Assembly: GCA_017501545.1 (NCBI GenBank)
Contig: JAFVWS010000004.1
Coordinates: forward strand, 1 to 64,000
Source: Clostridia bacterium
Lineage (GTDB): Bacteria > Bacillota > Clostridia > Oscillospirales > CAG-272
Length of the DNA stretch: 64,000 nucleotides
Direction: 5' to 3'
The notes under the pieces were generated by a model. The model was not told the DNA's origin. It saw nothing but the letters and a program-made list of their open reading frames with translations, and ran no database searches. The position numbers were made by a program, and so were the translations under genes. Positions 47,266 through 51,293 of the stretch are shown here, piece after piece; position 1 is the stretch's first letter; each line of letters begins with the position of its first letter.

Positions 47266-47281
47266 CATAAAAATTGAAAAT

Positions 47282-47348
47282 GTGAATAAAAACGTGAATA
47301 TATTCACAAAAAAGTGAATAAAAATCAAAAACCAGAAAAAATATTCAC
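47282..47348 (+). promoter_or_regulatory. Cluster of GTGAATA / TATTCAC half-sites (ArgR-like operator)
   Basis: GTGAATA occurs at 47282, 47294 and 47314, TATTCAC at 47301 and 47342. One pair makes a perfect palindrome (47294-47307), and 47315-47327 (TGAATAAAAATCA) is close to the Bacillus ArgR box. The cluster lies just upstream of a consensus promoter, as expected for repression by an arginine-type regulator. Confidence 0.45.
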
Positions 47349-47355
47349 AAAAAGG

Positions 47356-47384
47356 TTGACAAGTATAAAATATAAGTATATAAT
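47356..47384 (+). promoter_or_regulatory. Consensus sigma-A promoter of the amino-acid ABC transporter operon
   Basis: TTGACA (47356-47361), 17-bp spacer, TATAAT (47379-47384). Both hexamers are perfect. Confidence 0.93.
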
Positions 47385-47425: not shown

Positions 47426-48304
47426 ATGAAAAAGATTATTTCACTTAGCTTAGTAGCAGTAATGCTTGTTGCTCTTGTTTTCTGCTTCGCTTCATGTGGC
47501 AAGGACAAGGAATACGTTGCTGTTGATGCATCAGACCTTCTTAAGGAGGATTTTGGTATCGCAATAAAGAAGGGCGACACAGCAATGAAAACCGCAGTTG
47601 ACGAGGTTGTTAACGAGTGGGTTGCCAACGGCACAATGCAAAAGTATCTTGATTACTACACAGACCTTGCTGACTATGAGGCAGGCGCAAAGGACACAGC
47701 ACCAGAGGCAGGCGATCTTAAGACAAGCTGGAACTTTGGTTCAAACGGCAAAATCACAGTTTACACAGAGTCAGGCTTTGCACCATTCGAATTTTTGAGT
47801 GGTGATGACATTATCGGCGTTGACATTGCTATTATGAGCGAGGTTGCTGAGCGTCAAGGTAAGACAATTGAAGTTAAGGACGTTTTGTTTGACACAATTC
47901 CTACATGCGTTCAAACTTCAACAGGTGATGCAGTTGGTGCAGCAGGCCTTACAATCAACGAAGAAAGACTTGCAGCAGTAGATTTCTCAGCTGTATATTA
48001 CAGCTCAACACTTGTTATTGTTTCTCTAAAGGACAATAGCTATGATAGCCTTGCAGACCTTAAGGGACTTAAGGTTGGCGTACAAGAGGGTACAAGTGGC
48101 GACCTTATCGCAACTGATGCAAAGGCAGACGGACACAAGTATGTAAATGAAGATGGCCAAGAGGTTACAATTAAGGTTGAAATTGCTGAAATCAGCAGAT
48201 ATAAGCAATATTCACTCGCTTTCGCAGACCTCAAAAACGGTAGAATTGACGCTATCGTAATGGATAAGCTTCCTGCACTTACAATGCTTAACCTAATTGG
48301 CTAA
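47426..48304 (+). CDS. Amino-acid ABC transporter substrate-binding lipoprotein, apparently circularly permuted (292 aa)
   Basis: A lipoprotein signal ends at Cys24 (FASC). Residues 30-80 (EDFGIAIKKGDTAM ... VANGTMQKYLDYY) match what is normally the C-terminal end of an SBP_bac_3 protein. After a 28-residue linker the usual N-terminal start appears at residue 108 (KITVYTESGFAPFEFL) and runs on through VGVQEGTSGD to DLKNGRIDAIVMDKLPA, where the chain stops. The order is thus rotated, with no segment missing or doubled. It binds an amino acid, probably polar (arginine, histidine, cystine or glutamine type). It heads an operon with permease and ATPase genes and is followed by an intercistronic hairpin. 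Confidence 0.88.
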   Translation: MKKIISLSLVAVMLVALVFCFASCGKDKEYVAVDASDLLKEDFGIAIKKGDTAMKTAVDEVVNEWVANGTMQKYLDYYTDLADYEAGAKDTAPEAGDLKTSWNFGSNGKITVYTESGFAPFEFLSGDDIIGVDIAIMSEVAERQGKTIEVKDVLFDTIPTCVQTSTGDAVGAAGLTINEERLAAVDFSAVYYSSTLVIVSLKDNSYDSLADLKGLKVGVQEGTSGDLIATDAKADGHKYVNEDGQEVTIKVEIAEISRYKQYSLAFADLKNGRIDAIVMDKLPALTMLNLIG

Positions 48305-48320
48305 TAAATGGTTTAATTCT

Positions 48321-48350
48321 TAACTGAGGGGCTTTTGCTCCTCAGTTATT
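48321..48350 (+). promoter_or_regulatory. Intercistronic hairpin between binding-protein and permease genes
   Basis: TAACTGAGG / CCTCAGTTA (48321-48329 and 48340-48348) with an inner GGC/GCT pairing and TTTT loop. The weak T tail suggests partial termination or 3'-end protection, giving more binding protein than permease. Confidence 0.65.
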
Positions 48351-48368: not shown

Positions 48369-49070
48369 ATGTTAGATTTTATAGAAAGCTTTTCCAAGGC
48401 GTTTTTTGTACAAGGCAGATGGAAGCTTTACCTTGAGGGCTTAGGTAATACAATTATCATAGCGACAATAGCTGCAATTATCGGCGTAATCGTCGGCGTT
48501 ATATTTGCTATGATAAACTACCTAAAAAAGAAGACGGGTAAGCTAAAATTCTTGTCTGCGATTGTAAACATCTATATTACAATAGTGCGTGGAACACCAG
48601 TTGTACTACAGCTTATGATTTTATATTTCGTTGTTTTCGCATCGTGGGACAACGGAATTATGATAGGCGCTATAACCTTTGGTATTAACTCAAGCGCGTA
48701 CGTTGCTGAAATTATTAGAGCGGGCTTTGAAAGCGTTGACGACGGCCAAAGAGAGGCAGGACGCAGTCTTGGTCTTTCTACATGGCAAACAATGCGTAAA
48801 ATCATCATTCCACAGGCGCTAAAAAACTCATTGCCACCTTTGTTCAACGAGTTTATCACGCTTATTAAGGAAACTGCTATTGTTGGTTACGTTGGGATTA
48901 TGGACCTTGGCAAGGTGCCTGGTATGATTCAATCAAGAACCTTTGAATATTTGCCACCACTTATAATCTCGGCAGTAATTTATCTTGGACTCGTTATGCT
49001 ACTTACCTTGGCTTTACGGCAAATCGAGAAGGCACTTTCAAAAAGCGACAGAAACGGAGGTAAAAAGTGA
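48369..49070 (+). CDS. Amino-acid ABC transporter permease (233 aa)
   Basis: A HisMQ/GlnP-family inner-membrane permease. About five hydrophobic helices are visible; the EAA loop that docks to the ATPase is [23 protein letters not shown] (about residues 136-158), and [14 protein letters not shown] is the typical second-helix motif. The stop TGA (49068-49070) shares its last base with the ATG of the ATPase gene. Length is normal. Confidence 0.94.
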
Positions 49071-49951
49071 TGGATAATGTTATTATGCAAGAAAAACCAA
49101 TACTTTCCGTAAGAAACCTTCAAAAGAAATTTGGTCAAAACGAAGTTTTGAAGAATATATCAACCGATATATACAAGGGCGAAAAGGTCGTTATTGTTGG
49201 TGCATCTGGCTCTGGAAAAAGTACGTTCTTAAGATGCCTAAACTGCCTTGAGGATCCAACTGGTGGACAAATTATATTTGACGACGTTGATATTGCTGAT
49301 CGTCGTGTTAACATCAACGTTCATCGCCAAAATATGGGTATGGTGTTCCAACAGTTTAATTTATTCAATAATAAAACTGTGCTCGAAAACATTATGCTTG
49401 CACCTTACTTAATTCACGGCAAAAAATTCAAGAAGGAAAGAAAATCACAAAATAAGGCTGACAAAAAGCTTCTAAAAGAGGCACGTGAGGCTGGAAACCT
49501 TGAAAAATACCAAAGCATCCTTGAAAGAATTAGCCAAAGAAATCGTGTAAGCTATAGACAAATTTGCAAGGAAAAGGCAATGGAGCTTCTTCGCCGTATC
49601 GGTCTTGAGGATAAGGCAAAGGCATACCCTTCAACCTTGTCAGGTGGACAAAAGCAAAGAGTCGCTATAGTTAGGGCGCTTGCAATGAATCCAAAGGTAA
49701 TGCTTTTTGACGAGCCAACATCAGCACTCGACCCAGAAATGGTAGGCGAGGTATTAAACCTTATTAAAGAGGTTGCCGATGAAGGAATGACAATGGTTAT
49801 TGTTACCCACGAAATGGGCTTTGCACGCGAGGTTGGCACACGCGTTATATTTATGGACGAGGGAGTTATCGCAGAGCAGGGCACTCCAAGCGAGGTGTTT
49901 GATACACCTAAAAATCCAAGAACAAAGCAGTTCTTAAATGCAGTATTATAA
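49070..49951 (+). CDS. Amino-acid ABC transporter ATP-binding protein with a charged insertion (293 aa)
   Basis: It energises uptake of the amino acid. Walker [11 protein letters not shown]-loop VFQQFNLF, signature LSGGQKQR, Walker [13 protein letters not shown] and switch His (VTHE) are all intact. Compared with the usual ~245 residues it carries about 50 extra residues between the Q-loop and signature (roughly 115-170), highly basic and helical ([16 protein letters not shown]). I use ATG 49070; an in-frame GTG at 49067 is also possible, and GGAGG lies upstream of both. Confidence 0.94.
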
Positions 49952-50012: not shown

Positions 50013-50543
50013 TTATTCAGCGTCGTTTGATTCTTCTTCGTTTGATGCTTCCTCTACTGCCTCTTCGGTAGTTTCCTCTACTGCCTCTTCGGTAGCTTCT
50101 TCGTCATCCTTTTTGTCAGTTACCTTGTCAACAACGTTGTTTACAATACCAGTAGTCTTGTCAACAACCTTGTCAAAGAAACCGCCAACCTTGCCACCAA
50201 CCTTGTCAGCAGCCTCGCCAAACTCGCCCTTTTCGCCGTTTCCAGCATCGTCCTTAATTACGCCTACAAACTTAAGTATTGAAATAACAATACCACCAAC
50301 TATGTAGATGCAGAATAAGAACTCGATAAGACCGAGAAGAGCAATTACAATATATGCGATGATGTCGATGAACAAAGGTTCAGTAAATGCAGCCAAAACG
50401 CCCATGCCACCCATAATACCGCCGATAATAACGGAAACTACGAGATAGATGATTGCGTAAACTACAAGCTTAATAACAAAAGGCTTTGTAACCTTCTTTT
50501 CAAGCTTGAATGCGCCACTATAAAGCTTTCTCAAAAAATTCAT
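50013..50543 (-). CDS. Small two-helix membrane protein with acidic tail, copy 1 (176 aa)
   Basis: I do not recognise the family. A short amphipathic, basic N-terminus (MNFLRKLYSGAFKLEKKV) precedes two strongly hydrophobic segments (about residues 24-57 and 68-95; Gly-rich GGIMGGMG between). A disordered tail follows with Gly/Lys segments, FDKVVDKTTGIVNNVVDKVTDKKDD, and about 40 mostly Glu/Ala residues. It is about 60 percent identical by eye to the protein at 50702. The start ATG 50543 has AAAGGAGG upstream; the longer reading is untranslated leader. A scaffold or envelope role is possible but unproven. Confidence 0.82.
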   Translation of the reverse strand: MNFLRKLYSGAFKLEKKVTKPFVIKLVVYAIIYLVVSVIIGGIMGGMGVLAAFTEPLFIDIIAYIVIALLGLIEFLFCIYIVGGIVISILKFVGVIKDDAGNGEKGEFGEAADKVGGKVGGFFDKVVDKTTGIVNNVVDKVTDKKDDEEATEEAVEETTEEAVEEASNEEESNDAE

Positions 50544-50640
50544 AGTATATCCTCCTTTCAAAAATAAACAAAAGTGATTGTGTCGAGATGATATTCTCAA
50601 CAAAAAGTATTATATCAAATGAGAAATACGATTTCAATAT
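50521..50640 (-). repeat. 120-bp upstream repeat, copy 1 (promoter, leader, RBS and start)
   Basis: Identical to 51174-51293 apart from one base (50628 A, 51281 G). It contains on the minus strand TTGAAA (50637-50632), 17-bp spacer, TATAAT (50614-50609), a palindrome, the RBS and the first codons. Confidence 0.93.
50581..50602 (-). promoter_or_regulatory. Imperfect palindrome in the leader, copy 1
   Basis: TGTcGAGA and TCTCaACA half-sites separated by 6 nt, at the predicted transcription start. The same element is at 51234-51255. Candidate operator or leader hairpin. Confidence 0.5.
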
Positions 50641-50662
50641 ATTTTTGAAAATTTAATATAAT

Positions 50663-50690
50663 AAAAACGGACAAAATGTCCGTTTTTTTG
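50663..50690 (-). terminator. Terminator of small membrane protein copy 2
   Basis: AAAAACGGACA / TGTCCGTTTTT (50663-50673 and 50677-50687) with an AAA loop, T-rich on both strands. Confidence 0.88.
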
Positions 50691-50701
50691 TTGGAATAAT
50701 T

Positions 50702-51196
50702 TTATTCAGCGTCATTTGCTACTTCTTCTACAGTAGCTACATCTTCGCTGGAGTCCTCAGAATCATCCTTTTTGTCAGTAACCTTGTCAACGACATTGCT
50801 TACGACTCCAGTTGTCTTGTCAACAACCTTGTCGAAAAAACCACCAACCTTGCCTGCGGTTTCAACTGCAGTGTTGGGTTCGCCTTCTTCAAGTCCTGCG
50901 TTGTCCTTGATTACACCCACAAACTTAAGTATTGAAATAACAACACCACCGAGTAGGTATGCGCCGATTACAGTATACACCAATGCAAGAAGCATGATAA
51001 CGACATAGCAAACGATATCAACTGCTAATGTATCCATAGCGCCAGTTAAAACAAGAATTCCAATTTCAAGTGCGCCCCAAATAGAACCAATTACAAGATT
51101 AAGGATTACGTAAACAACAAGTCTAATAACAAATGGCTTAACTACCTTTTTCTCAAGATTAAAAGGCCCTTTGTAAAGCTTTCTCAAAAAATTCAT
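50702..51196 (-). CDS. Small two-helix membrane protein with acidic tail, copy 2 (164 aa)
   Basis: Paralogue of the protein at 50013 with the same layout: basic N-terminus (MNFLRKLYKGPFNLEKKV), two hydrophobic segments, the conserved GGVVISILKFVGVIKD block, FDKVVDKTTGVVSNVVDKVTDKKDD, and a shorter acidic tail. The middle differs (GALEIGILVLTGAMDTLAVD against GGMGVLAAFTEPLFID). The ATG 51196 and AAAGGAGG lie inside the duplicated upstream block. Each copy has its own promoter and terminator, so this is a tandem duplication of a whole transcription unit. Function unknown. Confidence 0.82.
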   Translation of the reverse strand: MNFLRKLYKGPFNLEKKVVKPFVIRLVVYVILNLVIGSIWGALEIGILVLTGAMDTLAVDIVCYVVIMLLALVYTVIGAYLLGGVVISILKFVGVIKDNAGLEEGEPNTAVETAGKVGGFFDKVVDKTTGVVSNVVDKVTDKKDDSEDSSEDVATVEEVANDAE

Positions 51197-51293
51197 AGTA
51201 TATCCTCCTTTCAAAAATAAACAAAAGTGATTGTGTCGAGATGATATTCTCAACAAAAAGTATTATATCAAATGAGAAATGCGATTTCAATAT
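51174..51293 (-). repeat. 120-bp upstream repeat, copy 2
   Basis: Second copy of the block at 50521-50640, offset by 653 bp and differing at one position. It carries the same promoter, palindrome (51234-51255), RBS and start codon. Confidence 0.93.

Follow-up and report, generated by a model that had tools for sequence, protein, structure and literature searches.

The gene at positions 47426 to 48304 on the forward strand of a 64,000-nucleotide stretch of contig JAFVWS010000004.1 (assembly GCA_017501545.1 of a Clostridia bacterium; the whole stretch is called the window below) encodes a protein of 292 residues and is followed by the genes for a permease and an ATPase of an ATP-binding cassette (ABC) importer. 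The open reading frame (ORF) was confirmed, with an ATG start and a signal peptide that carries the lipobox cysteine Cys24. Residues 110 to 219 matched the Pfam family PF00497 (SBP_bac_3) from profile position 1 with 73 bits, compared with a curated cut-off of 26.4 bits, which assigns the product to the Type II amino-acid substrate-binding proteins (SBPs). An earlier note on this DNA had claimed that the parts of this SBP stand in a rotated order, and this was confirmed. Segment 1 was defined as the part from the start to the first hinge, segment 2 as the small lobe, and segment 3 as the second hinge strand with the C-terminal helices. Normal members of the family have the order 1-2-3; the window protein has the order 3-1-2, designated “type A.” Its parts are as follows.

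47426..47497, forward strand: lipoprotein signal peptide, residues 1 to 24, lipobox FASC with Cys24 (read in the sequence)
47513..47671, forward strand: segment 3, residues 30 to 82, moved to the N terminus (hidden Markov model [HMM] of the C-terminal segment, and structure model)
47672..47746, forward strand: linker, residues 83 to 107, from the old C terminus to the old N terminus (between profile end and profile start)
47747..48301, forward strand: segments 1 and 2, residues 108 to 292, from the normal SBP start through the small lobe, ending past the helix C-terminal to the putative ligand-site residue Asp280

The profiles used to evaluate the order were built from eight normal-order relatives only, to avoid circularity. 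The HMM of the C-terminal segment matched residues 37 to 78 with 24.5 bits in the whole ORF, and residues 25 to 82 alone reached 29.8 bits, compared with a maximum of 10.1 bits in 1,000 shuffles, of which 982 scored. Residues 30 to 80 are indeed the normal C-terminal segment, as had been proposed, and the core HMM started at residue 108, where the normal beginning had been placed. The full normal-order profile scored the native chain with 158.8 bits over profile positions 1 to 168. Chains re-ordered with a rotation point between residue 85 and residue 108 (85, 97, 101 to 105, and 108 were printed) scored 184.7 bits and covered all positions from 1 to 223, other printed rotation points gave between 184.0 bits (residue 109) and 87.6 bits, and rotated chains with a shuffled moved segment did not exceed 164.9 bits in 300 controls. 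The rotation scores together with the shuffled controls therefore indicate that segment 3 had been moved and was neither missing nor doubled. This makes the protein a natural circular permutant, in which homologous segments are cyclically shifted with none lost. By homology, segment 3 contains those elements that in a normal SBP_bac_3 protein form the last strand of the small lobe, the second hinge strand, and both helices at the C terminus. The hinge motif E-x-(Y/F)-(G/A) was retained.

A search against solved structures placed an ordinary SBP core at about residues 106 to 287; three displayed alignments had the piece from the C terminus separate and out of order at residues 32 to 79, with a match that was weak by itself. 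Pfam and NCBIfam place just the core of the protein, which therefore passes for an ordinary SBP or a truncated one and eludes annotation. The AlphaFold2 model of the native chain was confident (predicted local distance difference test score [pLDDT] of 92.6) and had two lobes, with strands at residues 30 to 34 and 40 to 47, helices at 52 to 68 and 70 to 85, and a terminal helix at 281 to 291. Among the chains listed by VIA-align, none spanned the whole model in order. The cut is located in the loop after the terminal helix and not, as had been stated, directly after DAIVMDKLPA: eight more residues (LTMLNLIG) complete this helix. The predicted lipidation site Cys24, which was invariant across 60 aligned type A proteins, is positioned six residues ahead of the point where the profile match of segment 3 begins. 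In three of four orthologue pairs, the rate of nonsynonymous substitutions (dN) was higher in the linker than in both folded parts.

The earlier note had treated the protein as a single oddity; its permutation stood, its isolation did not, since it is a member of a widespread set in which the chain is cut at either of two places. A total of 181 distinct ORFs from 200 loci were classified. The type A order was present in 97 of them, the window protein included (96 unfused, one fused to a permease), 29 had the order 2-3-1, designated “type B” (27 unfused, two permease fusions), 51 had the normal order (48 unfused, three permease fusions with single, tandem, and triple receptor domains), and 4 were incomplete or odd. 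These proportions come from a biased sample, with loci picked by similarity to the window protein and about 20 for a suspected type B order, and the three-piece profiles would not easily reveal cuts other than these two. In an even sample of the class, type A was found in 37 of 391 genomes from 13 families (nearly full profile length, E of 1e-55); full-length matches were present in G620, G648, and G767, which are one-contig genomes. Type B, counted if the match began no later than position 28 and extended at least to position 256, was found in 21 of the 391 genomes (E of 1e-60), the other 24 of the 45 matches being partial. Divergent permutants are missed at these thresholds. At least 36 of 394 genomes of an order-level sample contained full-length type A matches, and in a phylum-level sample of 398 genomes only G000 and G519, both from the class Clostridia, matched type A at E of 1e-55. 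Judged from their titles, many named relatives were ruminant-gut bins of Clostridia and Oscillospiraceae. No relatives were found in viral contigs with the window protein as the query, and plasmid records queried with a type A relative yielded one partial match, from Monoglobus.

The breaks of type B were clean, with 11 of the 12 unfused proteins outside the A2 clade ending at profile positions 93 to 95 and beginning at 93 to 98. The linker that joins the old ends has 25 residues in the window protein and a median length of 16 residues both in type A (94 of 96) and in type B (27 proteins). Across all orders, an automatic search detected lipoprotein-like signal peptides for 69 of 73 ORFs. The spacer between the cysteine and the fold had a median of 7 residues in type A (quartiles 6 to 8; 95 of 96) versus 13 in the normal order (quartiles 4 to 23; 48 of 48), with a P value of 0.005; 14 of the 27 type B ORFs escaped the automatic detection of the lipobox. 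The highest score of the C-terminal segment among the type A relatives was 70 bits (L183). A divergent set of type A proteins, A3 (L033, L036, L040, L041, L044, and L047), had weak scores of 9.6 to 29.9 bits for this segment. Permuted receptors fused to a permease, as 2-3-1-permease or 3-1-2-permease, were observed at L161 (1719 to 3308), L162 (1908 to 3437), and L027 (238 to 1833), and the link to the permease leaves the receptor at another place than in normal-order fusions such as L163. An ORF of 1,000 residues at L199 (533 to 3532) was composed of three normal receptor domains and a permease. A single-sequence structure prediction for type B had a pLDDT of 40, too low to be of use.

Three operons combined two different orders with one permease. 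The genes were arranged as type B, type A, permease, and ATPase at L094 (the same place as L004), as type A, type B, permease, and ATPase at L046, and as type A, normal order, permease, and ATPase at L045. The natural reading is that one permease serves receptors of differing order. At L169 (2288 to 5716), one permease and ATPase were flanked on each side by a type B receptor.

The history of these orders was evaluated with trees in which all receptors had been set to the normal order. In the bootstrapped receptor tree (11 divergent rows dropped, 180 rotated domains thinned to 76, set A3 excluded), at least four changes were needed for type A, which was monophyletic in 0 of 200 bootstrap trees. 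The group of the window protein, A1, was nested among normal-order receptors, with support of 97/96 for seven A1 and four normal rows. In the permease tree, the A1 permeases formed one group (Shimodaira-Hasegawa-like approximate likelihood ratio test, 97) beside five normal-order systems (91) and apart from A2/B2. The approximately unbiased (AU) test rejected a single origin of all permuted forms (P = 8e-6), all type A as one group with the nested type B left out (P = 4.6e-7), and A1 together with A4 (P = 0.008), and it was borderline for A4 together with A2/B2 (P = 0.045). The trees separate A1 from the large A2/B2 group, but AU tests did not reject their union, with P values of 0.40, 0.062, 0.307 (confounded by the mixed operons), and 0.456 (rows of L004, L045, L046, and L169 dropped), so that the claim is limited to the rejected groupings. 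In the course of these analyses, one set of 142 rows was thinned to 90. The results imply more than a single change of segment order.

The importer operon around the gene is a normal one, as had been noted. It contains the following further features.

47356..47384, forward strand: promoter-like site TTGACA, 17-base spacer, TATAAT (read in the sequence; candidate)
48321..48348, forward strand: 12-bp intercistronic hairpin in the gap between the SBP and permease genes, without a trailing T run (stem survey)
48369..49070, forward strand: amino-acid ABC permease, BPD_transp_1 (PF00528, 89.1 bits; HEQRo_perm_3TM, 56.8 bits, cut-off 42.2)
49067..49951, forward strand: GlnQ-like ABC ATPase with an insertion in the helical domain (PF00005, 126.6 bits; spacing from Q-loop to signature)

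A BPD_transp_1 permease with a HEQRo domain and a GlnQ-like ATPase thus adjoin the receptor, as in a polar amino-acid ABC importer (PAAT). Where enough downstream sequence was available, permease and ATPase genes followed 47 of 47 unfused type A genes (of 96), 4 of 4 unfused type B genes (23 without enough sequence), and 19 of 21 normal-order genes (27 without enough sequence). In the ATPase of the window, the Q-loop and the signature are 98 residues apart. For the measured ATPases as a whole, a spacing of 55 residues was found next to 9 of 10 normal receptors, 3 of 29 of A1, 8 of 42 of other type A, and 2 of 14 of type B. Because the two deep A1 rows L106 and L099 keep 55 residues, the ATPase insertion probably arose after the permutation. 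The orthologue at L073 has identical promoter hexamers and spacing. A cluster of TGAAT/ATTCA half-sites, a possible operator, is located upstream of the promoter (window 47280 to 47355) and was also seen in some orthologues; the 5 half-sites in 260 bases were matched by 5 of 2,000 mononucleotide shuffles. Unbroken stems of at least 9 bp within 75 bases of the stop codon were present in 15 of 22 orthologous genes and in 0 of 1,100 shuffles, and the hairpin is perhaps a device for an excess of receptor over permease. No Rfam family matched at the gathering threshold between 44000 and 52000. On the reverse strand, at 50013 to 51256, two adjacent paralogous ORFs are identical over a stretch that precedes the likely start methionine (MLRISSRHNHFCLFLKGGYT).

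The gene product is very probably a lipid-anchored amino-acid receptor of an ABC importer and a natural circular permutant of the Type II SBP_bac_3 fold. Its chain would start in the small lobe, cross the second hinge strand, and form the C-terminal helices of the large lobe, the linker would then return to the old N terminus, and the rest of the large lobe and then the small lobe would follow. The lipid anchor would hold the small lobe rather than the large one, which is the clearest mechanical effect to be expected. Judged from profile positions, a structure match, and lobe limits that we take to be those of the glutamine-binding protein GlnBP, both cuts appear to shift the anchor in this way, which would fit the idea of the earlier note that the relation between anchor and hinge is changed. 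The putative ligand-site residues, presumably equivalent to the amino-acid site of GlnBP, were invariant in the 60 type A proteins; this suggests that the receptor binds an amino acid and closes as usual in the manner of a Venus flytrap. The ligand is most likely polar, for instance arginine or glutamine. The single permease gene indicates that the permease is probably a homodimer, and either lobe of the receptor could then meet either half of it, with docking via both lobes. As to the origin, in tandem SBP duplicates one copy may have lost its start and the following copy its end. In GlnPQ, the type A profile gave a single colinear match of 121.9 bits that ran across the tandem domains, beginning at the end of domain 1 and including the core of domain 2, and fused tandem domains exist in the same bacterial order (L198 and L199). 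Sliding a frame along such a tandem pair yields type A or type B, so that permutation by duplication would be the simplest route.

Several observations weigh against this interpretation. No ORF representing a duplication intermediate was found among the 181 classified. The fold is a predicted one, ligand binding is likewise a prediction, and both the lobe limits and the ligand residues are those that we assume for GlnBP. Foldseek and VIA-align follow the chain order, and the place of the moved segment in the fold is a prediction. Scores for substrate-specific models were far below their cut-offs (107.4 versus 256.35 for lysine/arginine/ornithine, 80.9 versus 303 for GlnH). A lead to the arginine repressor also failed and is not relied on. 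The sequence TGAATATATTCA was present exactly upstream of the window gene and of 3 of 21 orthologues (L073, L075, and L078) and was poorer in others, an ArgR gene exists in the genome, and the pattern with one mismatch occurred 25 times in the genome versus twice for the reversed control. Most of the 14 other sites, the surroundings of which led to the rejection, were within reading frames, and none was next to a gene resembling an arginine gene, as judged by reading-frame position only.

A broken or chimeric gene, due to a frameshift, an assembly error, or the fusion of two truncated SBP genes, might mimic a folded permutant, and the genome is a draft of 49 contigs with most named relatives titled as metagenome bins. 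This explanation is nevertheless scarcely credible and already contradicted by independent genomes: orthologues in nine genomes of the same genus share 62 to 82% identity over nearly the whole length, 24 loci with 57 to 81% identity align colinearly from residue 1 to 288 or further, and full-length type A proteins are encoded in the three one-contig genomes. The ratio of dN to synonymous substitutions was well below 1 for the whole gene and for segment 3 alone in four of four orthologue pairs, indicating purifying selection in both halves. No frame between 48250 and 48700 scored above 0 for the C-terminal segment and the gap from the stop codon to the permease ATG has only 64 bases, and a frameshift near the end, the alternative named in the earlier note, therefore fails. 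In the genome, which is 94% complete, the protein was the sole PF00497 match, and no second copy of the gene was found. Alternatively, residues 30 to 82 may be a separate helical add-on that resembles an SBP C terminus, with the true C terminus lost. The modest segment score of the window protein alone and the even lower one of 9.6 bits in the divergent L047 agree with this, but the 70 bits of L183, the preserved hinge motif, and the coverage of the entire normal profile by the rotated chain in one match make it very improbable.

If the protein is accepted as a permutant, the rotation could have been selected for an anchor, or in the fusions a permease link, on the small lobe that alters the hold during docking. 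The apparent position of the new N terminus in the small lobe for both cuts, the signal peptides in all orders, and the short and uniform spacer of type A compared with the loose one of the normal order are in favor of this, and the authors of the study on the permutant TpMglB-2 proposed tethering as a reason for that permutation (PMC4990184). The spacer difference is small, however, and was obtained with a lipobox search that passed over about half of type B. A normal-order lipoprotein beside a rotated one in front of one permease at L045 indicates that an anchor shift is not needed, and selection for the anchor is possible but doubtful. The rotation may as well have been neutral, if the ends of tandem SBP copies are eroded and any surviving complete cyclic frame is kept. 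All three orders recur in the same operon setting and side by side in three operons, where neighboring SBP genes and fused tandem domains were found; the lack of an intermediate among the classified ORFs argues against neutrality, as does the observation of only two cuts, although further ones could easily escape the profiles. Since the normal and the rotated forms share their setting, a neutral loss from tandem copies has somewhat better support than an advantage, and its chances are about even.

The wider result is that a single receptor fold exists in three cyclic orders, with recurrent changes between them; what counts seems to be the fold rather than the sequence in which its parts are arranged. 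Three orders in related bacteria with like operons are a natural experiment on how chain order, anchor, and hinge position influence closure and docking, and naturally kept cut sites may aid the designers of sensors. A more far-reaching and speculative picture would be that Clostridia possess a fold without a fixed order, which is repeatedly re-cut by permutation through duplication, with all orders serving one kind of permease and a shared small-lobe anchor tuning the docking; as a whole, this is rather unlikely.

To our knowledge, natural circular permutants are uncommon. Natural permutation within SBP_bac_3 was not reported among the open-access literature matches listed, a scope that leaves aside subscription papers and preprints; a listed paper on imelysin (PMC3143127) contains the words “circularly permuted.” The SBP_bac_3 or PAAT receptors GlnH, ArgBP of Thermotoga maritima, and AncQR, which were the best solved matches, share the fold, the likely ligand-site residues, and the operon partners, but differ by the normal segment order and an anchor expected on the other lobe. 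GlnPQ (PDB 6h30), a protein with receptor domains fused to a permease, contains two complete normal domains and no permutation, although the end of domain 1 and the core of domain 2 read as type A. In the core of the ionotropic glutamate receptor, a pore is inserted between S1 and S2, near the place of the type B cut, which is an insertion instead of a permutation. Clifton et al. in 2017, by their title, reportedly permuted ancestral receptor proteins on purpose for Förster resonance energy transfer sensors, and these receptors presumably share the SBP_bac_3 fold. Such permutants are man-made, while the window protein is natural; the study is cited by title in PMC7683729. The only natural SBP permutant among the literature matches listed, and thus the nearest precedent, was TpMglB-2 (Tp0684) of Treponema pallidum, “Type Ic / Cluster Bc.” According to PMC4990184, it is likewise a lipoprotein receptor of an ABC importer, still binds its ligand and changes shape, and has relatives in Gram-positive bacteria, many of them gut commensals. 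TpMglB-2 is a sugar receptor of Type I / Cluster B, in which the chain crosses the hinge three times and, as a result of the permutation, a fourth time, whereas the window protein belongs to PF00497, has amino-acid receptors of this family as its best solved matches, and is therefore not of Type Ic / Cluster Bc but a Type II SBP_bac_3 receptor that has two hinge strands, is cut elsewhere, and has relatives in which the order changed recurrently and a second cut was used.
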